Shown here piece after piece: positions 13,662 through 32,420 of a DNA stretch of 33,313 nucleotides. The stretch spans positions 594 through 33,906 of the IMG/VR virus record IMGVR_UViG_3300030090_000565, one strand, 5' to 3'. Source of the stretch: a virus. The translations under genes were made by a program, and so were the position numbers. The notes under the pieces are model-generated. The model was not told where the DNA came from. It saw nothing but the letters and a program-made list of their open reading frames with translations, and ran no database searches. The stretch's first letter is position 1. The number at the start of each line of letters is the position of its first letter.

Positions 13662-16600
13662 ATGGCTACCGATAACGCTAATAAACCAGAAATGATTCCA
13701 GTAGAAGTTTGGAATACGTATACTACTAAACGTGATGAAGTAGTAGAACAGTTTAGAAACCGTACATTACCTAAAAATAAAAATATAACTTACGGTCAAA
13801 TAATAAGTGATGATGAATTAAGAGCTATCGCTAATAATTCCGAAGAAGTAAAACCTTATGTTTTTTCTGTATATCCTGAAGAAACTGAGTTTAGTACAAA
13901 AAATGAAGAGTTTGTTAAAAATATCTTTTCTCAAAGAGTCGCTCCATATAATACAGTTCCTAAAGTAGATTACAATATTTATGAAAATATGATGGAAAGA
14001 CGTCCTCAATTAGCTAAAGCTTGGGAAACGTATAATTCTGAATTAGGTCAAACAATAAGAGCAGAAGAAGCACAAGGTATTTATAGACCTCAACAAGAAT
14101 TTCCTGTTGAATTAACAAACGAATATATAGAAAAAACAGGTGACCAACCACCAGGAGTTCTCAGTAGTTTTATTGAGGTTAGTAGATACAATAGAAATCT
14201 TCGAAACGAACCTCGTATGGGCAGATTTGCTAAAGCAAAAGAAATAGCTCAGTGGGGCGTAGACCCTGAAAACGTTATAGATTTTGAAGGAGCTGAAGAT
14301 TTTCAAAAGGGACTATTTTACTTACCACGTAATATGACTAAAGAAGATTTAGATTTTTATGCAAAGAAAAGATTTAAAGATTTAGGTTTAAATATATCAG
14401 GTGATTTTCAATATATAAATCCTGGAAATCCTTCATTAGGTATTAAATTTAAAAAAGACGGAGAAGATGAATATAAAATAATTAATAGTCCTTTTGTTGA
14501 ATGGTCAGACGTTAAGCAATTTCTTGCAAAAGAAAGTCCTGCAATAGTAGGGGATTTACTTTTTACTATTGGAGGTACTAAGGGTTTAGACAAAGCTGTT
14601 AAAGGAAAGAAATTTAGTAAATCAAGATTAAAAAATGCAACTGATAAATGGGCTAAAGAAATGAATTATATTGACCCTGGAGTTACAAAAAGAATGTTAC
14701 AAATAGGTGGTATGTCTCTTTTATCCGCAACTGGTGCTGCTGGTGGTGATTTTATGAGATTAGTAGCAGGCAAAGAAAAAGGTTATCATGACCGTACTTT
14801 TGATGATATTGTAAAAGAAAGTGCTCTTATAGGAGCTTTAGCATTTGCAGGAACAGCTGCGGTAACTATGGCAATAAAAACTGTTCCTAGTATATGGAAA
14901 AGATTTACTGGTGAAGAAGTTCCACATAGTTTTTATCAAACAATGGATGATATATATGAAACGTTAAAAAGACAAGAAGAAGGGGTATCAACAGGTCCTA
15001 TGAATCTTGCATATGGACCTAATCAAGCAACTAATAAAGAAATAAAAGAAGCCATAGCCAAGTTAGCCGATTATACAGCGGATGAAATAAGTGAATATGG
15101 TCCTTCGATTGTAAGTGCGTTAGACGACCCTGATATTACTGCTAATACTTTATTTGAAATTTTTGTAAGACAAGCAGATGACCCAGGAATACAAAATACA
15201 TTTAGAAAAATACAACAAGGTAACGACGCAGTTGCTGAACAGTTTATACGTTATATGACTGATTATTTTAGTGATGCAGGTAGTGCTGCTACAGGAGCTA
15301 CTGTAGGTGAAACACTTAAATCAACAGCAAAAACTAAAATAGATGATATAGAAGCAAAAATGGAAGAAATAGTTAGGCAAATGCAAAAAGAATATGCTGA
15401 CAATGTTTCAAAAATTGAAGGAGGAGAAGGAACTCTTTTATTAGATGATGTTTTAAACCCCGAAGCTTCAGGAAGTACATTATTTATAAGAACACAAAAA
15501 GAATTAGATAAAATTTTAAAACAATATAAAAACACAGCAGACGAACAATACACATCAGTAAAACAAAAATACAATAATTTAACAACAGGTGCAGGTTATT
15601 TACGTAAACCAACTAGTGCTTGGAAAAATATAAAATCTGATAATAAAGTAGTTTTTGGTTATAAAAACAAAGTAGCAGCTGCTGATGAATTTTATAATTC
15701 AATACCAAGAGATTTAAGAATGCGTTTACAAGGTCAATCACCTACAGGTGGGTTTGCTGGTAAAGAAGAAATAAAATTTACTTTTGAAGAATTAGACGGG
15801 TATCGTATGGGGCTCAATAAATTAGCGTCTGAAACAGCGGATAGTAATCCTATTTTATCGAAAAGTGCTAGAGATTTAGAACGTGGTATAGAAAGACAAA
15901 TGCTGGAGCCTATTTTAGAAGAGTCTAAAAAGAGATATTTTGCTTCAATAGGAGAATCAGTTCCTAATAAAAAATTAACAAAATCTCAAAACGCTGCTGT
16001 AGAAAATTGGAGATTAGAAAATAATTATGGAGTTGATTTAGAAGATGCTTGGAAAGTTTCACAAGAAGCTAGAAAACTAGCTAACTCTCAATTATTTAAA
16101 AGTATTAAACAAACTTATCCAGAAAGATTAATAGATACAATATTAGCAACTAACACTAAAAAGGCTGCAACAAACACTCCTTTAAATGATTTTTTAACAG
16201 TTTTAAAATCAAATAAAAATTCTAATGAAATAAAAGATATACAAGAAGGTTTATTTTCATGGATAAACCGTAGTATTTTTGAAGACCCAAATCTTTCAAG
16301 TTTTCAAAAAGGAAATAAGTATCGACAATTTGTTTCTGATTATAGAGGTACTTTAAAAACTCTTTATGGAGATGATTTTAAAAAATTATTCGGAACTTCG
16401 TTTAAAGACTTTGATAACGCGGTACTTCAATTACAAGAATATGATAATATTGTAAAAGCTTTACGATTTAAATATGCTCCAAATAATTCATCTGCTGGTG
16501 TTTATAATTTTGTAGAAAATATATTAGAAACTGCCCCTAAACAAAAAATATCTGGACAAGCAACTGCTGACGTTAAAGAACTTATAAAATTAGTTGGTGA

Positions 16601-18420: not shown

Positions 18421-19257
18421 ATGGACCCTAATGAAAGATTAACAGGTATTGCAAGTATGATGCCACAAGGTGGAGCACCTATGGGTGGTGGAGCACCAGC
18501 ACCAATGGCACCTCCCCCTATGCCTCAACCAGAAATGTCGGGACCTCCTCCTATGCCTATGGAACCTGAAATGGGTGGTGAACAGCCTCCTATGAATTTA
18601 GAACAAGACGCTATGATGTTAGCTGAAGCTGTTGTAGGTAGAACACAAGGCGATATAGGTGCAGCTGTAGATGTTTTAGATACAGCTAAAGCTATGTTAA
18701 TGTCTAGTGGTAATCAAGAACCACAAATGATGAATATGGGTGGACCTTTATATGCTGAAAGTGGTAGAGCAATTTCTAATTCTGATTCTGATATATTAAG
18801 ACAGATGATTATGGACGATTTTCAAGGACAAAGCGGAAGAACTATGTCTGATAAAGATACATCAAGATTAACACAATTAGGGGATTTATTTAGAAAAGAC
18901 TGGGAAATGTATAAGGAATATACTCGAAATAACCCAGAACTTTCAGAATACCTAGATATTATAACAAGAGGAGGTAGAGCATTAAGCGATAAAGATGCAC
19001 AAATGCTTTACGAAATGGGTATTAGAAGTGGTGAAATAGGTAGTGCAACTAACCCTGACCCTTTAGATTCATTAGGCAGAACTAGGTCTGGTATAGATTG
19101 GTCAAAATTAAAAAATATTTCTCCTTCTTATCGACTGTATGAAAAAATGAAGAAGAAAGAAAATGTGCCTCCTGTTTCAAGAGCAGTTGGTGGACCTTTA
19201 ATGACTGATGCACAAAAATATAGGGAAGCAATAAAAGAAGCTAGAATGGTTAGTTAA
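18421..19257 (+). CDS. Virion-associated protein with three SDKD-type repeats
   Basis: Residues 12-60 of this 278-aa protein are Pro/Met/Gly rich (PMGGGAPAPMAPPPMPQPEM). Three copies of a short motif follow: GRAISNSDSDIL (115-126), GRTMSDKDTSRL (139-150) and GRALSDKDAQML (185-196). Each is followed by a helix, which suggests a repeated docking element. The 581-aa protein upstream has one further copy (GRTLSDKD). Two short GGPL segments (108-111 and near 260) flank the repeats. It ends tail-to-tail with the helicase gene; the two stops overlap over 19250-19257. I do not recognise the family. Confidence 0.7.
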   Translation: MDPNERLTGIASMMPQGGAPMGGGAPAPMAPPPMPQPEMSGPPPMPMEPEMGGEQPPMNLEQDAMMLAEAVVGRTQGDIGAAVDVLDTAKAMLMSSGNQEPQMMNMGGPLYAESGRAISNSDSDILRQMIMDDFQGQSGRTMSDKDTSRLTQLGDLFRKDWEMYKEYTRNNPELSEYLDIITRGGRALSDKDAQMLYEMGIRSGEIGSATNPDPLDSLGRTRSGIDWSKLKNISPSYRLYEKMKKKENVPPVSRAVGGPLMTDAQKYREAIKEARMVS

Positions 19258-20701
19258 TCCAATCTTTCCATTTTTCATCACCTAATACTTCTTGTGCTAG
19301 GTCGAGTTTGTTTCTAAGAGCTTTTACAATTTTTTCATCTACAGTACCTTTAGCGACTAAATCAATATAAGTTACTTTATTAGTTTGCCCTATACGATGA
19401 GCACGGTCTTCAGATTGTAAACGTTTTTCTAAATCATAATTATTACTATAATAAATTACATTACTTGCTTCAGTTAAAGTAATTCCATAACCACCTGTTT
19501 GGGTATTACTAACTAAATATTGTAGTTGTGAATTAGGGTCTTGAAACCTACGTATAATTTCTTGACGTTCTTCGTCAGGTGTTTCACCGTAATAGGTAGC
19601 TACACTTTCAGTGCCTGTTATTTCTTGTAATGTTTTTAATATTCTTTTTATATCGTATTGATAGTTAGCCCATATAATAGTTTTACCTTGTACTTCTTGT
19701 AAAATATTTAATAGTTCATCTAAACGGTTGCTTTTAACTTCTACTTCTTCACCATTATCATGTCTAACGAAACCACAAACAACTTGGTGTAATCTTAATA
19801 TTTGTGTAAGTATTGAAGTTACACTAACTATTTCATGTGAATCTAATTCTGCAATAGCGTAATCTTTTAATTGTTTATAAACTTTCTTTTGTTCAGGAGT
19901 TAATTCTACTTCCCTACGTTGATATATTTTATCTGGTAAATCTAAACAGTCTTTCTTTAAAACTCTATAAGAAAATTCATTTACGTTTTTACTTAATTCA
20001 TCTAAATTTTGATAACCTACAACTTGCCTAAACGACCTAGCCCCCATTTTACGATTAATTAATTGTGCGTATCTGTTTTGAAAAGAATAATAAGACGCAT
20101 ACCCTAATAATTGAGGAGATAAGAAACTGCTTTGACTGTATAAATCTAAAGGTGATTGCGTAACAGGAAATCCTGTAAGTATTCTCCTGTATTTAGTATT
20201 GATAGCTAACTTCAATAAATTTTTAGTTCTTTGTGCTTTAGGATTTTTTATAGTCGTTGATTCGTCAACTGCTATTAACGGTAAATGTCCTAATATAAAT
20301 TTTTCAACAAAAGCTACTCCTTTTTTAGTGCTAAAAGCTTCAACGTTGATTACTAATATTTTTAAATCATCACTAGGAGTAAATAATTTAATTAATTCTT
20401 CTTTTTGTTTTTTAGTAGGTGCAGGATTCCACACAGCTATTTGTGTTTCTACGTGGTCTGGCATATGAGTAGGTATTTCTTTTTCTGACCAGTTTCTATA
20501 CACCCCTTTTGGAGCAACAATAATTGCAGAATTTATCCCGCCTTTATCATAAAGTATAGCTATATTATCAATAAGAACTTTGGATTTACCCGTTCCCATT
20601 TCCATAAAATAAGCGTATTCTTTTTTATTCCAAGACTTTTTTAACGCTTCTAATTGATGCTCATACGGCTTAGTTTTAAACTTATATTTAATTTCACTCA
20701 T
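19250..20701 (-). CDS. SNF2-type superfamily 2 DNA helicase/translocase
   Basis: This 483-aa protein is on the minus strand. Visible motifs are Q-like YEHQLEAL (13-20), Walker A EMGTGKS (34-40), motif II VDESTT (145-150, DEST in place of DEAH), ILTGFPVTQSPLDLYSQ (174-190, SNF2 motif III region), a VSNTQTGGYGITLTEAS segment and motif VI RAHRIGQ (433-439). These are typical of compact phage SNF2-family ATPases, which move along duplex DNA and may remodel protein-DNA complexes or aid replication and recombination. It is the only minus-strand gene here and probably has its own promoter near 20728-20733. Family is confident, exact job unknown. Confidence 0.93.
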   Translation of the reverse strand: MSEIKYKFKTKPYEHQLEALKKSWNKKEYAYFMEMGTGKSKVLIDNIAILYDKGGINSAIIVAPKGVYRNWSEKEIPTHMPDHVETQIAVWNPAPTKKQKEELIKLFTPSDDLKILVINVEAFSTKKGVAFVEKFILGHLPLIAVDESTTIKNPKAQRTKNLLKLAINTKYRRILTGFPVTQSPLDLYSQSSFLSPQLLGYASYYSFQNRYAQLINRKMGARSFRQVVGYQNLDELSKNVNEFSYRVLKKDCLDLPDKIYQRREVELTPEQKKVYKQLKDYAIAELDSHEIVSVTSILTQILRLHQVVCGFVRHDNGEEVEVKSNRLDELLNILQEVQGKTIIWANYQYDIKRILKTLQEITGTESVATYYGETPDEERQEIIRRFQDPNSQLQYLVSNTQTGGYGITLTEASNVIYYSNNYDLEKRLQSEDRAHRIGQTNKVTYIDLVAKGTVDEKIVKALRNKLDLAQEVLGDEKWKDWIN

Positions 20702-20727
20702 AATTAACTTTCTAATTTCTGAGTGAG

Positions 20728-20733
20728 ATTATA
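20728..20733 (-). promoter_or_regulatory. Candidate -10 element for the SNF2 helicase gene
   Basis: A perfect TATAAT on the minus strand lies 27 bases before the helicase ATG. The -35 position 17 bases upstream reads TATAAA, a poor match, so this rests on the -10 alone. Confidence 0.3.
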
Positions 20734-20806
20734 TATTACAAACTATATTATTTATAGCCCAACTTAAAACTTTTTCTCATGCCCTCTAATAGAATCACTC
20801 TGTTTT

Positions 20807-20877
20807 TAATACTGACTTTTTGAAATCTAATATTGTAATAATCTCTAAAACACTGAGATTTTTTAAAGTCAGTATTA
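20807..20877. repeat. 13-bp perfect inverted repeat enclosing a smaller hairpin
   Basis: TAATACTGACTTT (20807-20819) pairs perfectly with AAAGTCAGTATTA (20865-20877). Inside, AATCTC (20840-20845) pairs with GAGATT (20855-20860) around a 9-base loop. The inner stem is followed by T4 more (GAGATTTTTT), faintly terminator-like, but it is short and AT-rich. Confidence 0.85.
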
Positions 20878-20896
20878 GTTTATTAGTAATATTAGT
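20874..20896 (+). repeat. Three ATTAGT direct repeats
   Basis: ATTAGT occurs at 20874-20879, 20882-20887 and 20891-20896, spaced 8 and 9 bases apart, starting in the right arm of the inverted repeat. They could be short iteron-like binding sites, though low-complexity AT sequence can do this by chance. Confidence 0.5.
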
Positions 20897-20955
20897 AAAT
20901 CTTAAAAATTTTTTTCTGTAAAAAATTTATTTTTTAAAAAACATATAACTAATAA

Positions 20956-20965
20956 CTTTACTTTG
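20956..20965 (+). promoter_or_regulatory. Shared intergenic motif CTTTACTTTG, copy 1
   Basis: This 10-mer ends 53 bases before the ATG at 21018. The same 10-mer lies 55 bases before the ATG at 26363 (26299-26308) and again at 32566-32575. TTGTCC (20963-20968) with TTTAAT (20985-20990), 16 bases apart, could be a promoter overlapping the motif. Confidence 0.45.
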
Positions 20966-20988
20966 TCCTTATTCGTATATATTATTTA

Positions 20989-21000
20989 ATTTCTAGAAAT
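20989..21000. promoter_or_regulatory. 12-bp perfect palindrome, possible operator
   Basis: ATTTCTAGAAAT is a perfect palindrome. It lies directly before the strong ribosome site AAAGGAG of the first early gene and just past the candidate -10, where a repressor dimer could bind. Confidence 0.4.
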
Positions 21001-21017
21001 AAGAAAGGAGAAAACAA

Positions 21018-21359
21018 ATGACAGTATATGTCGTACAAGAAGTTCAAGGTAGAAATATTGCCTCTGCTAGACAGTATGGTGATTTTGAAGTTTTGTTACC
21101 TTCTAATACTCAAATAATGTTAAGTGCCTCTCCTTCTGTTCGTAGAATGAAGAAACTCCTACAGGACTACAAGGAAGGGGATTACTTACTTTTAATTGGC
21201 GACCCTGCCGCCATAGGCGTAGCGTGTTCTATCGCTGCATTTTATAATAGAGGTAGATATAGTATATTAAAGTGGGATAGGCAGGAAGGTTTATACTATC
21301 CCGTTGATATCGATTTACACCAGAAAGGAGAAATAGATGAATCAGAAACCAACTTTTGA
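21018..21359 (+). CDS. Early-region protein of unknown function
   Basis: This 113-aa protein has a strong AAAGGAG ribosome site 7 bases before ATG. It is an alpha/beta protein opening MTVYVVQEVQGRNIASARQY, with an LLLIGDPAAIGVACSIAAFY segment (about 56-75) and a WDRQEGLYYPVDIDL end. It is the first gene of the rightward replication block, so probably expressed early. Proteins of this look occur beside replication genes in marine phages, but I know no function. It overlaps the next gene by 23 bases. Confidence 0.7.
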   Translation: MTVYVVQEVQGRNIASARQYGDFEVLLPSNTQIMLSASPSVRRMKKLLQDYKEGDYLLLIGDPAAIGVACSIAAFYNRGRYSILKWDRQEGLYYPVDIDLHQKGEIDESETNF

Positions 21360-21916: not shown

Positions 21917-22690
21917 ATGGCAGAAGAAAATAAAATAGTTGAGGCACCGTCAAACGCTATAAGCACTTTTGACGATACTTTACTATCAGGCGGTACTGGG
22001 TTAGAAGACACTACTACAGAGGATTTTGCAATCCCTTTTATTAGAGTTTTACAACCTATGTCACCACAATTACAACGACAACACGGCAGTTATGTAGAAG
22101 GTGCCAAAGCAGGAGACCTGTTTAACACCGTTACTGGCGAAGCCTACGACGGCGAGAAAGGAATATCTATTGTTCCATGTGCTTATAATAAAAAGTATAT
22201 AGAATGGATTCCTAGAGAAAAAGGTGGTGGATTAGTAAACGCTAACCACGATATTTCTATATTATCTAAATGTACTAGAGACCCTGAAACAAGAAGATAC
22301 TACACAAGTGATGGAAATGAGATAGTTGAAACTGCTCAATTCTTTATTCTTGTTACTGATGGAGAAACCACACAGCAAGCAGTTCTTGCATTTACTTCTA
22401 CTCAATTAGGAGTAGCTAGAAAGTGGTTAACTATGTTAAGAATGGCTAGAGTACAAAATTCTAAAGGGGAGTCTGTAGAAGCTCCTATGTTCGCGTATAC
22501 CTATAAACTTACTACTACCACTCAATCGAATGATAAAGGTAGTTGGAACGCTTATAGCGTAAACCAAGAAGGTGCTACAGTTTTAGAGGTAGCAAAAATA
22601 GCTAAAGACTTTATGTCTGCAGCTAGGTCTGGTGATGTTGATGTAAAACAAGAACAGCAGAACGACGTTGTTGACGATACGATAATTTAA
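21917..22690 (+). CDS. Putative phage single-stranded DNA-binding protein
   Basis: This 257-aa protein has an acidic N-terminus (about 1-35) and a core beginning DFAIPFIRVLQPMSPQLQ. KAGDLFNTVTGEAYDG and ISIVPCAYNKKYIEWIPRE follow, with LVTDGETTQQAVLAFTSTQL later. The C-terminal tail is acidic (QQNDVVDDTII), a layout typical of SSBs whose tail recruits partner proteins. Proteins with this core sit in the SSB slot of many phages, before primase and polymerase genes. No canonical OB-fold motif can be read by eye, so SSB is an inference from tail, size and position. Confidence 0.65.
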   Translation: MAEENKIVEAPSNAISTFDDTLLSGGTGLEDTTTEDFAIPFIRVLQPMSPQLQRQHGSYVEGAKAGDLFNTVTGEAYDGEKGISIVPCAYNKKYIEWIPREKGGGLVNANHDISILSKCTRDPETRRYYTSDGNEIVETAQFFILVTDGETTQQAVLAFTSTQLGVARKWLTMLRMARVQNSKGESVEAPMFAYTYKLTTTTQSNDKGSWNAYSVNQEGATVLEVAKIAKDFMSAARSGDVDVKQEQQNDVVDDTII

Positions 22691-22692
22691 TC

Positions 22693-24216
22693 ATGTCGTT
22701 AGCAAGGGAGTTCGCTACACGTTATGCAGGACTACGTCAGGCATACGGAACTTTTACAGCTAGCAATGAAACTAGAGAAGATGGAAAGGCAAGTGGTAAA
22801 AACATAACGATATCTAAAGAGTTATCTGATAACGATTTATTAAAGTTATGGGAAGACCATTTGTCTGGTCATCAAAGTGTGGGAATAGTTCCTATAGATG
22901 AACATAATAACTGCGTATGGGGAGCCATAGACGTAGATGAATACCAATTAGATTTAAAAGATTTAGCTATAAAGATTGCTAAACAAGAGCTTCCTTTAGT
23001 GCTTTGCCGTAGTAAAAGTGGTGGAGCTCATATATACATATTTTTAAAAGAGCCTGTAGCAGCTTCGATGTTACAAAGGAAATTAAGACAGATTGCAGCG
23101 TCTATCGGTTATGGACAAGCAGAAATATTTCCTAAACAAACACAATTATTATTAGAAAGAGGGGATAGAGGTAGCACGTTAAATATGCCTTATTTCGGTG
23201 GAGAAAACTCTACACGTTATGCTTACGGTAAAGATGGAGCAGCATTAAGCCCACAAGAATTTTTAGATTATATAAACGATATTGAATTAAGTCCTAGTGC
23301 TTTAGAAAAATTAGAAGCTAGTCCATTAACAGAAACTATGGAGTGGCTAGACCAAGCACCACCGTGTATACAACATCTTGTTGTACAAGGTTTCCCTAAA
23401 GGCTCACGAAACTCAGGGCTGTTTAATGTAGGTGTTTTCTTAAGAAAGAAGTTTCCAGATGATTGGGAAAAAAGATTAGAAGATATAAATATAAAATATA
23501 TGCAACCTCCATTAGGTGCACAAGAAGTTTTAACTGTAGGTAAACAATTACAAAGAAAAGATTATTTTTATAGATGTAATGACCAACCTATAGCAAGTCA
23601 TTGTAATAGTCCTTTATGTAGAACTCGTAAGTTTGGTATTGGTGCTAACGGTGGCACACCTTTATTCAGCAACCTTACAAAACAAGATAGCGACCCACCT
23701 ATATGGTTTTTAGATGTAGAGGGAGGCAGATTAGAATTAGAAACAGACGATTTATTAAACCAAAATAGGTTTCAGCGTAAGTGTATGGACGCTCTTAACA
23801 AAATACCACCTAAAGTAAAAGAAAACGTTTGGAGACAGATAATACAGCAATTACTAGACGCAATAACCATAGTAGAAGTGCCTAAAGAAAGTTCTACTGA
23901 AGGACACTTTATGGAGTTATTAGAAGCTTTCTGTACGGAAAGACCTGCTAGAGAAAGAGATGAATTATTACTACATAAACCTTGGACAGACAATGGTAAA
24001 ACATATTTTAGGTTATTAGATTTAATGGATTATTTACATAGAAATAATTTTAAAGAATACCAAAGAAATAAACTAACTTCTAAATTAAAACAACTACACG
24101 GAGAGCCTCACTTTTTTAACATAAAAGGCAAAGGCATAAACGTATGGTATATAGATGAATTTAAAGCACAAGATGAGCCCCACGACTTACCAGACTTTAA
24201 CGATAATTTATTATGA
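22693..24216 (+). CDS. Archaeo-eukaryotic-type primase (TOTE/primase-polymerase-like)
   Basis: In this 507-aa protein residues 1-175 form an AEP-type catalytic domain. It contains the metal-binding pair D80/D82 in WGAIDVDEY, the nucleotide-binding CRSKSGGAHIYIFLKEP (H113), and AEIFPKQ with a further acidic residue. A C-terminal region has PPCIQHLVVQG and KGSRNSGLFNVGVFLRK, and cysteines C225, C295, C304 and C309, which may form a metal or Fe-S site as in PriL/TOTE-type primases. It would make primers for replication by the polymerase at 30208. It overlaps the AlkB-like gene through ATGA. No ribosome site is obvious, so coupling to the SSB gene is likely. Confidence 0.85.
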   Translation: MSLAREFATRYAGLRQAYGTFTASNETREDGKASGKNITISKELSDNDLLKLWEDHLSGHQSVGIVPIDEHNNCVWGAIDVDEYQLDLKDLAIKIAKQELPLVLCRSKSGGAHIYIFLKEPVAASMLQRKLRQIAASIGYGQAEIFPKQTQLLLERGDRGSTLNMPYFGGENSTRYAYGKDGAALSPQEFLDYINDIELSPSALEKLEASPLTETMEWLDQAPPCIQHLVVQGFPKGSRNSGLFNVGVFLRKKFPDDWEKRLEDINIKYMQPPLGAQEVLTVGKQLQRKDYFYRCNDQPIASHCNSPLCRTRKFGIGANGGTPLFSNLTKQDSDPPIWFLDVEGGRLELETDDLLNQNRFQRKCMDALNKIPPKVKENVWRQIIQQLLDAITIVEVPKESSTEGHFMELLEAFCTERPARERDELLLHKPWTDNGKTYFRLLDLMDYLHRNNFKEYQRNKLTSKLKQLHGEPHFFNIKGKGINVWYIDEFKAQDEPHDLPDFNDNLL

Positions 24217-26298: not shown

Positions 26299-26353
26299 CT
26301 TTACTTTGCATAAGGTTGTAAGATAAAGTAAATAAGTAATATTTTTTAAAAAA
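26299..26353 (+). promoter_or_regulatory. Candidate promoter region with CTTTACTTTG copy 2, inverted repeat and T6A6
   Basis: CTTTACTTTG (26299-26308) is followed by AAAGTAAA (26325-26332), making an 8-bp inverted repeat TTTACTTT/AAAGTAAA with a 17-base spacer. TTGCAT (26306-26311) and TAAATA (26329-26334) are 17 bases apart as weak -35/-10 hexamers. T6A6 (26342-26353) directly precedes the ribosome site AAGGAG. Confidence 0.4.
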
Positions 26354-27202: not shown

Positions 27203-27351
27203 TGGGTAGAAAAGTAAGAGAATCTGAATATTGGAAAGGTTTACAAAATGTTAGAAAAAGCAACGCTGTACCTAATTCTGATTTGACTCCTAAAAGACCT
27301 GCAAATAGAAAAGAGCGTAGAGCAGAAGCAAAACTTAGAAGGAAGAAGTAA
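27202..27351 (+). CDS. 49-aa basic protein
   Basis: This frame starts in the upstream stop (taATG) and its stop overlaps the next ATG, so all three genes are coupled. The product begins MGRKVRESEYWKGLQNVRKS and ends KERRAEAKLRRKK; it is highly Lys/Arg rich and likely helical at its end. GGAAGAAG before the ATG can act as a ribosome site. It may bind nucleic acid. No family is recognised. Confidence 0.6.
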   Translation: MGRKVRESEYWKGLQNVRKSNAVPNSDLTPKRPANRKERRAEAKLRRKK

Positions 27352-28256
27352 TGTTTATTCAAGAAGAATTGAATCGTTATTGTTATTGGCAAATAGAACG
27401 TGAAAACATTCGTTTGCAAAAAGAGGTGTCTCAACTCCCACCACCTTGGACAAGCGATTCAATTCTTCGAGAATACAAGTTTTGTCAAGTATTTAGAGAA
27501 GACGACAGAACAACTAGGTGGTTTAAAACCCATATAAGAGAGCCTATGAAAAACTCTCCAGACGTCCTCATGGCTACGGTTATATTCAGATGGTTTAATT
27601 GGATTCCTACAGGAAGAACTCTTATTAAACACGATTTATTAAAAAACTGGAATAGGAAGAAAGCTATAGAAGAAATAACTAAACAACCTAAATGGATAAC
27701 AGGAGCATACATAATTAAAACACCTAACGGTATGGATAAGGTTACAGGAGTTGCTGAATGTGTATCACATATGTGGCAAGACCGAGAATATTTAGCAAAA
27801 GAAATCTTTAAAACTAAATCTTTAGAAGATACTTGGACTCTACTTAGAGATTATCCATACATGGGACCGTTTATGGCTTACGAGGTCGTTACGGATTTAA
27901 GGCATACCTATCTATTAGAAGACGCTAAAGACGTGCTTACGTGGGGCAACGCAGGTCCAGGAGCTATGCGAGGATTAAATAGGTTAACGGGCAGGGAACT
28001 AGGCTACTCTAAACGTAGCCATGATTGGGTAGGAGAAATGCAAGAATTATATAAAATAGTTCAAGCAAAACTTCCCGCACATATTTTACAAAGAAACGAT
28101 ATGAAATATGAAATGAGAGAGATTGAAGGAGGGCTTTGTGAGTTCGATAAATACTCTAGGATATTTAAAGGAGAGGGCAGAACAAGGTCTATATATAAAC
28201 AAAATTCTTTACCAATAGTAGAGGATTTAATTAATGGAGAAAGTAAATATGGGTAA
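27351..28256 (+). CDS. HMUDK-helical / aGPT-pyrophosphorylase-type thymine hypermodification protein
   Basis: This 301-aa protein has the N-terminal block LPPPWTSDSILREYKFC (29-45) followed by QVFREDDRTTRWF, the signature of proteins annotated as alpha-glutamyl/putrescinyl-thymine pyrophosphorylase or 5-hmdU DNA kinase helical domain. Later PYMGPFMAYEVVTDLRHTY and GNAGPGAMRGLNRLTGRE are also typical. These proteins act in phages that replace or decorate thymine via 5-hydroxymethyluracil in DNA. No Walker A motif is present, so the P-loop kinase step must lie elsewhere if it exists. The TS-superfamily gene 300 bases downstream fits a source of 5-hmdUMP. Family is fairly sure; the chemical step is not. 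Confidence 0.82.
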   Translation: MFIQEELNRYCYWQIERENIRLQKEVSQLPPPWTSDSILREYKFCQVFREDDRTTRWFKTHIREPMKNSPDVLMATVIFRWFNWIPTGRTLIKHDLLKNWNRKKAIEEITKQPKWITGAYIIKTPNGMDKVTGVAECVSHMWQDREYLAKEIFKTKSLEDTWTLLRDYPYMGPFMAYEVVTDLRHTYLLEDAKDVLTWGNAGPGAMRGLNRLTGRELGYSKRSHDWVGEMQELYKIVQAKLPAHILQRNDMKYEMREIEGGLCEFDKYSRIFKGEGRTRSIYKQNSLPIVEDLINGESKYG

Positions 28257-28552: not shown

Positions 28553-29590
28553 ATGAAAGTTATAAAAGCAAGAAATGTTAATGGTGCATTATTAAGAGGA
28601 GTGGATTTATTTAAGTCTGTGCTTAACTACTCAACAATAGAAAGCAGAAACGGTAAAACTTTAGAATGTGTTGACCCTGTTACTACTGTGTATTTAAAAC
28701 CAACAGAAAGAGTATGTCTTATAGAAGAAAGAGATGCAAATCCTTTCTTTCATTTTATAGAAAGTATGTGGATGTTAGCAGGTAGAGATGATTTAAAACC
28801 ACTAACTTATTATGTATCTAGTATGAAAGATTTTTCAGATGATGGTGAAACTCTATGGGGAGCTTATGGTAAAAGATGGAGAAAATATTTTCTTAAAGAC
28901 CAAATAGATGTTATTGTTAAGATGTTGAAAAAAGACCCTAACGATAGACGTGCGGTATTACAAATGTGGGACGCTATACATGATTTAGATAAACAAGGTA
29001 AAGACGTGCCGTGTAATACGAACATATATTTTAAAATCAGACTTAATAAATTAAACATGACTGTTTGTAATAGGTCTAACGATATGCTTTGGGGAGCCTA
29101 TGGTGCTAACGTGGTACATATGTCAGTTTTACAAGAATATGTAGCTCACAGATTAGGATTAGAAGTAGGAGTGTACAGACAAATTAGTGATAGTTTCCAC
29201 GTTTATTTAAACAATGTTTGGGACAAAGTAAAAGATTTATCTATAGATTCTTACTCTATCAGAGCTATTATAGACCCATACGATAAACTAGAAAAATATA
29301 ACCCTTATTTTAAACTATTTATAGACCACACAGTTTTAGATTGGGAGCTTGATAGATTTTTTAATTATCATCCTGCTGATTTAGAAACATCAAATAATTG
29401 GGAAAACCCTTGTATGAGGGATGTAGCAGTGCCTATGGCAATAGCTTATTCTAAATATAAAGCTAACCAATTTGATGAAGCATACGAAGTATGCGAAAAA
29501 ATAGTTCCAGTAGACTGGAAGACCGCTTGCCTCAGTTGGCTCCGCACACGAGAAGAGCGTAAAAATAACCTAGCGGAAAAAGGAGAATAA
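28553..29590 (+). CDS. Thymidylate synthase superfamily: dUMP methylase or hydroxymethylase
   Basis: In this 345-aa protein the catalytic Cys is C154 in DVPCNTNIYF. RRAVLQMWD (132-140) holds the phosphate-binding Arg pair, RSND (174-177) with MLWGAYGANVVHM (178-190) replaces the RSxDxxLGxPFN region of ThyA, and DSFHVYLN (213-220) matches the HxY nucleoside contact. N186 at the pyrimidine-recognition site suggests dUMP rather than dCMP (dCMP hydroxymethylases have Asp). With the hypermodification protein just upstream, 5-hydroxymethyl-dUMP is a reasonable product, but plain dTMP synthesis cannot be excluded by sequence alone. It is longer than bacterial ThyA (264 aa). Confidence 0.88.
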   Translation: MKVIKARNVNGALLRGVDLFKSVLNYSTIESRNGKTLECVDPVTTVYLKPTERVCLIEERDANPFFHFIESMWMLAGRDDLKPLTYYVSSMKDFSDDGETLWGAYGKRWRKYFLKDQIDVIVKMLKKDPNDRRAVLQMWDAIHDLDKQGKDVPCNTNIYFKIRLNKLNMTVCNRSNDMLWGAYGANVVHMSVLQEYVAHRLGLEVGVYRQISDSFHVYLNNVWDKVKDLSIDSYSIRAIIDPYDKLEKYNPYFKLFIDHTVLDWELDRFFNYHPADLETSNNWENPCMRDVAVPMAIAYSKYKANQFDEAYEVCEKIVPVDWKTACLSWLRTREERKNNLAEKGE

Positions 29591-30207: not shown

Positions 30208-32079
30208 ATGCAACAAATACCTTTCGATTTTTTTGCTCCTAAGAGTTCTTGGTCTACGCCAGATGTTTTTCCTCAGTTTTCTGAAACAGAAACAGTGGCA
30301 ATAGATTTAGAAACCTATGACCCTTACCTCACGACTTGTGGTCCAGGATGGGCTACAGGTCGGGGTCATGTGGTAGGTATAGGAGTAGCTACTGAATCAT
30401 GGAAAGGGTATTTCCCCATTAGACATGAGGCAGGAGGTAATTTAGACGAAGGTGTTGTTTTAAGGTGGTTAACCAATCTACTCAACTCTACTAAAAGAGA
30501 AGTTATATTTCATAACGCACTCTATGACGTAGGTTGGTTAAGGCGAGAAGGGATTATAGTCAAAGGTAAAATACTTGATACTATAGTCGCTGCTCCGTTA
30601 ATCAATGAAAATATGTTTTCTTACTCATTAGATAATCTAGGCAGTTTTTATTGTGATGAAAAGAAAGATGAATCTTTATTACAAGACGCATCATTAGCTT
30701 TTGGAGTTAATCCTAAATCAGAAATGTATAAGTTACACGCAAAGTATGTTGGACCTTATGGTGAACAAGATGCAGCGTTGACTTTAAAACTATGGAATAA
30801 ACTTAAAATAGAAATAGCTGAACAAAATCTAGAAAAGATATTAGAAACAGAATCTAAACTAATTCCTCTACTTATAGAAATGAGGTGGAGAGGTGTTAGA
30901 GTAGACGAAGAAAAAGCAGAAAAAATTAGTAAGCAGTTATCCACCGAAGAACAAAAAATACAAGTAGAGATAAAACGTAAGTATGGCAGTGATGTGAACT
31001 TATGGGCTAATGCTTCTCTACAAAATATTTTTGATAAAAATAAATTATGGTACCCACGCACAGAAAAAGGTATGGCTAGTTTTCAGAAAGATTGGTTAGA
31101 AGGACATGAACATGAACTTCCACAACTAATAGTAAGAGCTAGAAAACTCAATAAAGCTAGGACTACTTTTATCGATAAGATGATTATGGAACACGCTTTC
31201 AATGGCAGAATACACGCAGAGGCTCATCCTATGCGTAATGATAGAGGAGGGACAGTTAGTGGTAGGTTTAGTTATAGTAATCCAAATCTACAACAAGTTC
31301 CTGCTCGTGACCCAGAAATAGGTAATTTGATACGTTCATTATTTATTCCTGAAGAAGGTTGTCAATGGGGCGTGTTCGATTATTCTCAACAAGAGCCCAG
31401 ACTTACAGTGCATTACGCTAACCAAATGCAATTAACAGGAGCAAAGGACGCAGTACAACAATATACAGAGGATAATGCAGACTTTCACCAAATTGTTGCA
31501 GATATGGCTAATATACCACGTAAACAAGCAAAAACTATTAATTTAGGATTAAGTTATGGTATGGGTAAAACTAAACTAATTAAGGAGTTAGGATTAGATG
31601 ATACAGAAGCAGAAAAATTGTTTCAACAATATCACGCTAAAGTTCCTTTTATCCGAGCTCTACAAGACCAATGTGCAAGAGTAGCTATGGAACGTGGCTA
31701 CATCAGAACATTTGCAGGTAGACGTTGTCGTTTTGATTTGTGGGAAAGCAGATATGAACGCACTCTACCTCTGCCTTTAGATGAGGCAAAAGAAAAATAT
31801 GGCGAAGACTTGAAAAGGTCTTATACTTACAAAGCTCTAAATCGTTTAATACAAGGCTCAGCTGCTGATATGACTAAATTAGCAATGATAGGTCTATGGG
31901 AGGAAGGAATAGTTCCTCATCTACAAGTACACGATGAAGTTGATATTTCAATAGAGAACACAGAACAAGCTAACACAGTAACAAGAATAATGGAGAACTG
32001 TGTCGAACTTGCTGTTCCCCTATTAGTGGATATGGAATTAGGCGAATCGTGGGGCGAAACAAAGGAAATAAAAAGATGA
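30208..32079 (+). CDS. Family A DNA polymerase with 3'-5' exonuclease
   Basis: This 623-aa replicative polymerase has exonuclease residues D33/E35 (AIDLETYDP), D107 (NALYDVGWL) and D188 (YGEQDAALT). Polymerase motif A reads VFDYSQQEPR (D391), motif B RKQAKTINLGLSYGMG (K442, Y450) and motif C QVHDEVD (H575-D576-E577). No 5'-3' exonuclease domain is present, as usual for phage PolA. L446 is the equivalent of E. coli F762; Leu there is linked in marine virus surveys to slower, more accurate synthesis and often to temperate or less virulent lifestyles. It overlaps the downstream HTH gene through ATGA. Confidence 0.97.
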   Translation: MQQIPFDFFAPKSSWSTPDVFPQFSETETVAIDLETYDPYLTTCGPGWATGRGHVVGIGVATESWKGYFPIRHEAGGNLDEGVVLRWLTNLLNSTKREVIFHNALYDVGWLRREGIIVKGKILDTIVAAPLINENMFSYSLDNLGSFYCDEKKDESLLQDASLAFGVNPKSEMYKLHAKYVGPYGEQDAALTLKLWNKLKIEIAEQNLEKILETESKLIPLLIEMRWRGVRVDEEKAEKISKQLSTEEQKIQVEIKRKYGSDVNLWANASLQNIFDKNKLWYPRTEKGMASFQKDWLEGHEHELPQLIVRARKLNKARTTFIDKMIMEHAFNGRIHAEAHPMRNDRGGTVSGRFSYSNPNLQQVPARDPEIGNLIRSLFIPEEGCQWGVFDYSQQEPRLTVHYANQMQLTGAKDAVQQYTEDNADFHQIVADMANIPRKQAKTINLGLSYGMGKTKLIKELGLDDTEAEKLFQQYHAKVPFIRALQDQCARVAMERGYIRTFAGRRCRFDLWESRYERTLPLPLDEAKEKYGEDLKRSYTYKALNRLIQGSAADMTKLAMIGLWEEGIVPHLQVHDEVDISIENTEQANTVTRIMENCVELAVPLLVDMELGESWGETKEIKR

Positions 32080-32420
32080 AAGGTATCTCTCAATTAAAAG
32101 CAAAAGAAAACTCCATTAAATATAAAAGCATGTATGAAAAGTGGAGTAACTCTACCACCACGTTAGAAGAACTAGGTAAAGAATACGATATTACTAAACA
32201 AAGAGTATGGCAAATAATAACCAGATGTAAATTAGGTGATGGTGATTATTATCTTGGAACACAAGTTGCACGTAATAAATGGTCGGAACTTAATTCACTC
32301 TACTCGGATTTTGATGACATTTTACCTGCTTATAATGACTGGTTATCTAAACAAGGTATTAAAACTGCTAAAAATAACCAATCAGTAGTTCCACATAGCG
32401 GATGGGACTGGAAATTCTAA
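32076..32420 (+). CDS. Sigma-region-4-like helix-turn-helix protein
   Basis: This protein has 114 aa from ATG 32076 (AAGGAA upstream, ATGA overlap with the polymerase stop); a GTG at 32049 in frame lies inside the polymerase gene and is unlikely. Residues 28-50 read TTLEELGKEYDITKQRVWQI, the pattern of sigma-70 region 4 / bacterial HTH recognition helices (L..LG..Y.IT.QRVWQII). No other sigma regions are present, so it is a small DNA-binding regulator rather than a full sigma factor. It directly precedes a gap that carries one copy of each shared non-coding motif, which makes it a candidate for binding there. Confidence 0.75.
   Translation: MKGISQLKAKENSIKYKSMYEKWSNSTTTLEELGKEYDITKQRVWQIITRCKLGDGDYYLGTQVARNKWSELNSLYSDFDDILPAYNDWLSKQGIKTAKNNQSVVPHSGWDWKF

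Follow-up and report, generated by a model that had tools for sequence, protein, structure and literature searches.

Bacteriophage SPP1 has two replication origins, each built from direct repeats and an AT-rich unwinding element and lying ~13 kb apart (PMC6316719, PMC3485210; origin-related parts of both papers). The locus described here resembles SPP1 oriL/oriR in having two distant copies of a repeat array with an A/T tract, one of them beside the replication genes, and differs from it in several respects (same parts of both papers). The two marine arrays are inverted with respect to each other and ~20 kb apart, and the first, array A, is intergenic whereas oriL lies inside gene 38. SPP1 uses the G38P initiator and a DnaB-family helicase (PMC6316719, the same part), whereas here no G38P-like protein was found and the neighbouring genes encode an AEP primase and helicases of the SNF2 and UvrD types. 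A second point of comparison is Brevundimonas phage Delta, where, in the relevant section of PMC9437464, the sites of a single regulator cluster in a large divergent gap, much as the CTAATA sites do in array A. Phages of SAR11 are very abundant in the sea, according to published abstracts. The literature searched describes no origin or control region for them, in so far as the parts consulted go (including parts of PMC12753301 and PMC9599517), and the arrays reported below do not appear in the portions of PMC12753301, PMC9599517, PMC6316719, PMC3485210 and PMC9437464 that were consulted.

The DNA analysed, referred to here as the window, is 33,313 nucleotides long, and its closest named relatives are the pelagiphages HTVC027P and HTVC023P and phage 023Pt_psg01. 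Its relevant features are the following.

19250–20701, minus strand: SNF2-type helicase gene, on the F side of array A (Pfam SNF2-rel_dom, 5.7e-23)
20702–21017, no strand: intergenic array A as a whole, a 316-bp gap (exact bounds) with divergent genes on either side
20730–20762, minus strand: probable helicase promoter, with TATATATTACAA at 20730–20741 as the -10 side on the minus strand and GCCCAA at 20757–20762 (TTGGGC on the minus strand)
20775–20787, plus strand: TCTCATGCCCTCT block adjoining site F1, backed by the TCTCRTGCCCTCT matches given below
20786–20791, plus strand: site F1, CTAATA
20806–20816, plus strand: site F2, TTAATACTGAC, left arm of a 13-bp inverted repeat
20827–20832, plus strand: site F3, CTAATA, 44–46 bp ahead of R1 in 65 of 67 trio-bearing gaps
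20873–20895, minus strand: R trio, TATTAG at 20873, 20881 and 20890, spaced 8 and 9 bp
20896–20955, no strand: A/T tract, candidate unwinding element, with a similar tract in array B
20956–20985, plus strand: rightward promoter, CTTTACTTTG (-35 TTTACT), 17 nt, TATTAT
21018–21359, plus strand: Pam3 gp32-like gene, 113 aa, first in the replication operon (Pfam PF23992, 1.7e-25)
32049–32420, plus strand: small helix-turn-helix (HTH) gene, candidate array-binding protein (weak matches to Mor, 3.6e-4, and Sigma70_r4, 1.4e-3, both below cut-off)

A first-pass annotation had placed the gap at a point of divergent transcription close to SSB-like and primase genes; it is flanked by the minus-strand helicase gene and the plus-strand 113-aa gene. 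The replication operon to the right encodes Pam3 gp32-, gp33- and gp34-like proteins, an AEP primase (start at 22693) and a UvrD-type helicase, with PolA further on. The gene called SSB-like is most likely 21917–22690, judging from a structural model of its gp34-like product whose best PDB matches are RPA and SSB chains (none at E 0.001, with low TM-scores). Further along the window, the gene for a 5-hmdU DNA kinase-like protein (27351–28256; Pfam HMUDK_hel, 3.7e-45) has that of a thymidylate synthase homologue close to it (28553–29590). This gene pair suggests that thymine may be hypermodified in the phage DNA, in which case modified bases could be present in the A/T tract and CTAATA sites.

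Array A has an ordered layout: up to three forward CTAATA sites 19–22 bp apart, an interval of 44–46 bp, three inverted TATTAG sites (8+9 bp) and the A/T tract. Six copies of CTAATA/TATTAG are present in the gap, a number reached in 0 of 1000 shuffles, and no 316-bp stretch elsewhere in the window holds more than four. The three ATTAGT repeats and the long A/T runs following them, both remarked upon in the first-pass annotation, are indeed present, the former (at 20874, 20882 and 20891) being the R trio in another register. The locus thus has the repeated short-site array expected of an iteron-type origin, with order and spacing conserved. A scan for consensus promoters returned 8 matches against 11.5 expected, so promoters were called instead from conservation and from the repeated CTTTACTTTG element, which recurs at 26299 and 32566, each time ahead of a gene. 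The blocks of 20730–20762, the probable helicase promoter, are kept in most aligned gaps, and a TATTACAA-like block is also present in array B. The TCTCRTGCCCTCT block has 24 matches in 19 whole records, every one no more than ~125 nt from an array R trio. In the relatives L007–L086 the promoter copy matching that at 26299 is often paired with AAAGTAAAG, forming a 9-bp inverted repeat over the promoter that is a possible operator.

These relatives were found with the 113-aa protein and are the best 80 of 269; in all 80 the counterpart of the gap is 240–376 nt long. Adding a helicase-based set gave 70 distinct gaps including that of the window, of which 68 were aligned and two (775 and 425 nt) were dropped for length. 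Of the aligned gaps, 65 have an R trio with 8+9 spacing and two have one with 9+8, while in the last the trio is broken; most share a common order: helicase promoter region, TCTCRTGCCCTCT, F1–F3, 44–46 bp, R trio, A/T tract, CTTTACTTTG promoter and ribosome-binding site. In a group with 240–246-nt gaps the TGCCCTCT block is missing, as is some of the F side, and some relatives are without one or two forward units, the loss occurring in ~20-bp steps with F-to-R spacing retained. The 80 gaps contain 68 occurrences of the pattern TATTAG-N11-TATTAG and the remainder of the same 1.1 Mb contains none, counts that come from related and partly redundant loci. A pattern scan returned 101 loci, comprising 81 copies of array A, three of array B and 17 others, which are AT-repeat gaps or fall inside ORFs. 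Two kinds of enlarged gap were also seen: L083, L084 and L085 carry, after the promoter and ahead of the gene start, an insertion that includes a GC-richer inverted repeat (TATAGCG / CGCTATA-like), and L311, L314, L321 and L155 have 760–783-nt gaps with the array and several hundred more bases ahead of the 113-aa gene.

The array is not confined to the divergent gap. From the 80 loci, 26 whole records, mainly long contigs, were chosen and searched with the R-trio pattern, which is present in all 26 and occurs once more, in the opposite orientation, in 23; a reversed-pattern control gave 0. Array B sequences fetched from the 23 records contain the same blocks as array A, and in all 23 pairs the similarity between the two arrays of one genome exceeds that in all 100 shuffles. 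Two similarly organised copies are therefore found in one genome, as in twin origins of the SPP1 type. In the 20 records where the two arrays point towards each other across a single interval, they are 19.0–24.2 kb apart. Array B lies at the head of the late genes, with a terminator on one side and the gene for the terminase small subunit (terS) on the other, so that the twin arrays bracket the replication genes, one heading the replication operons and the other at the early/late boundary before terS. Its F side faces terS (six of the 23 neighbours were translated, and all look alike), identified by Pfam Terminase_2 at 6e-14 in L278 and by PHROGs in L262, where a terminator is followed by array B, terS, four ORFs and terL. 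The terminator-like stretch, judged by eye, is on the A/T side of most copies and absent in L287–L289 and L295. Because the A/T side of array B abuts a terminator and no promoter, the A/T tract is more than part of a rightward promoter. The window's own record stops before the position predicted for array B, ~20 kb to the right of array A. Near the terS end of the early region, proteins resembling VRR-type nucleases, as judged by eye, recur (L402:3744-4199, L404:927-1361 and HTVC027P ~16230-16500); in HTVC027P and 023Pt_psg01 the stretch concerned carries no annotation.

Further afield, 79 loci were taken around a 54%-identical homologue, several from contigs of the first set. TATTA-N12-TATTA is present in the gap in 52 and absent in 18, with no divergent helicase in the locus in the other nine; 14 of the 18 array-less gaps measure just 68–136 nt. 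In a more distant clade (55–62%), two arrays are found in six of eight array-bearing records searched whole. Six further loci, L375–L380, perhaps from freshwater phages, have helicases ~44% identical to that of the window. There, CTAATA arrays lie between a terminator-like stretch and the replication operon, directly upstream of helicase-gp32-gp33-gp34-primase. One of the six retains the full 8+9 trio, and the longest contig of the group has a second cluster ~20 kb from the first, which points the same way and precedes a 113-aa ORF; none of the remaining 21 loci in this search has an array by the same pattern. In L377, L378, L379, L380 and L404 the arrays are flanked by CACGTACGTG-like palindromes besides the CTAATA sites, perhaps for a second binding protein. 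The cultured phages HTVC023P and HTVC027P and 023Pt_psg01 have no array by the same patterns. As in the window, their helicase gene lies opposite a replication operon made up of the same genes, but the helicase–operon gap in the HTVC023P-type pelagiphages is only 49–70 nt.

What might the arrays do? The first-pass annotation proposed an origin or a major early switch, and this is still the right pair of hypotheses. It named two observations that would count against it, of which one, a want of conservation, is contradicted by the order and spacing kept in close relatives and by the two copies per genome in 23 of 26 records, whereas the other, a want of skew change, is what we find across relatives. 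The leading possibility, which we hold tentatively and by analogy, is that the array pair constitutes iteron-type replication origins acting like SPP1 oriL/oriR. A phage protein would bind the CTAATA sites cooperatively and, once bound, would open the A/T tract; the primase/helicase set encoded next door would then be loaded, making the array a replication origin. Array B might serve as another origin or trap the replication fork, in line with proposals for SPP1 oriL/oriR, and the bound protein may at the same time co-regulate the promoters that face the arrays.

Several properties favour the origin reading: its iteron anatomy, its location at a replication operon, the twin copies as in SPP1, an A/T tract that is kept where no promoter adjoins it, and the instability of that tract, the window's stability being lowest, for lengths of 60, 80 and 100 bp, in the stretches that begin at 20881, 20873 and 20861. 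Others weaken it. The A/T tract of array B is the least stable stretch within 3 kb in 0 of 23 loci (for 50-mers, that of array A comes out as least stable in about half of 78 loci). GC skew in the window tracks the coding strand. A skew sign change does coincide with the gap in the window alone (Fisher p 0.0014 on pooled counts, p 0.19 per gene), but it was dropped as an origin signal because it fails in relatives, where fourfold-site skew is greater to the left of the gap than to the right in just 19 of 37; skew therefore lends the origin no support. The window's gap has no DnaA box and DnaA-like boxes occur in only four of 80 A gaps, which also weakens the case; counting for it, four of the six loci of the L375–L380 group have a perfect box, a single one per locus. 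Moreover, array-less relatives have the same replication genes, and no known initiator gene was identified, none of the proteins scanned (part of the ORFs) being named as a G38P-family initiator, a loader or a DnaB-type helicase. Finally, the promoter that each array also faces would be explained equally well by a regulatory role.

That regulatory role is nearly as likely as twin origins. The arrays could be a master transcription switch, an operator or enhancer for a phage regulator that times the helicase/replication operon from array A and the late operon, starting with terS, from array B. Such a role would fit the F side of both arrays facing a gene start (helicase or terS) with common promoter-side blocks, and array B heading the terS-to-terL operon, and it has a precedent in the phage Delta gap with its 12 CtrA sites (PMC9437464, the section cited above). 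CtrA itself was considered and rejected, as TTAA-N7-TTAA is found in none of the 68 A gaps, none of the 23 B arrays and not in the window's gap. The regulator might be the HTH protein of 32049–32420, whose gene tracks the marine arrays, being present in 11 of 11 array-bearing records and in 0 of 10 array-less ones (several of them short), but it was not found in the six records of the L375–L380 group, all of them partial. It is also harder to see why a switch should have its R trio and A/T tract ~150–250 bp from the promoter served, and keep them where no promoter adjoins, when array-less relatives run divergent transcription from ~70-nt gaps; nor is the array found at the other CTTTACTTTG promoters, turning up at two places only. 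A single protein serving both origin and switch is compatible with everything seen.

It is improbable that the arrays are packaging (pac) sites bound by TerS, with packaging starting at array B and array A a second bound site. Array B does lie directly upstream of terS, and the pac site of SPP1 overlaps the terS promoter and gene start (PMC6316719, the part dealing with packaging). Against this, array A is beside the helicase in all of the best 80 of 269 relatives, the array heads the replication operon in L375–L380, and it is hard to see what purpose two inverted pac sites would serve. Nor are contig ends concentrated at the arrays, although assembly ends are a poor guide to virion ends.

The first-pass annotation laid its stress on nested hairpins, and both elements are there as described: the perfect 13-bp inverted repeat (TAATACTGACTTT at 20807–20819 and AAAGTCAGTATTA at 20865–20877, 45 nt between the arms) and the 6-bp hairpin that it encloses (AATCTC at 20840–20845 and GAGATT at 20855–20860). 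Conservation, however, attaches to the CTAATA site, its orientation and its spacing, and does not extend to the inner hairpin in the relatives' gaps. Since three of 300 dinucleotide shuffles of the gap yield a perfect inverted repeat of at least 13 bp with a loop of at most 80 nt, the outer repeat is by itself just mildly unusual. The flanks of F2 and R1 are complementary at 4.08 of 7 positions; shuffling among genomes gives 3.02 and matches the observed value in 0 of 1000 trials, a count that is not a probability as the sequences are related. Those of F3 and R1 co-vary too (2.97 against 2.35, again 0 of 1000 as high). A single stem is insufficient to account for both, whereas a site 'dialect' shared within a genome and read by a protein would fit, and the 13-bp inverted repeat is best seen as two CTAATA sites facing each other, with the hairpin a by-product. 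That it works by folding into a hairpin in DNA or RNA (as a cruciform, a terminator or a regulatory RNA) is very improbable, for while F2 and R1 co-vary as a stem would, one stem leaves the F3–R1 co-variation unexplained and is absent in relatives that lost forward units, and an Rfam scan of the window matched no structured-RNA family at gathering scores.

The analysis yields a precisely defined cis-element that occurs twice and obeys a spacing rule, together with natural variants in which units have been lost and relatives that do without the array; with these, simple experiments can tell apart the readings as origin, switch and packaging site. Returning to the origin reading, a more specific version of it is unlikely. 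Here the arrays would be a matched origin and fork trap: replication would start at array A, and the same protein, bound at the inverted array B, would stall the fork, shifting theta replication to concatemer formation and opening late and packaging transcription. Were this true, a duplicated element of ~250 bp would set the timing of replication, of late gene expression and of packaging in marine phages that are widespread.
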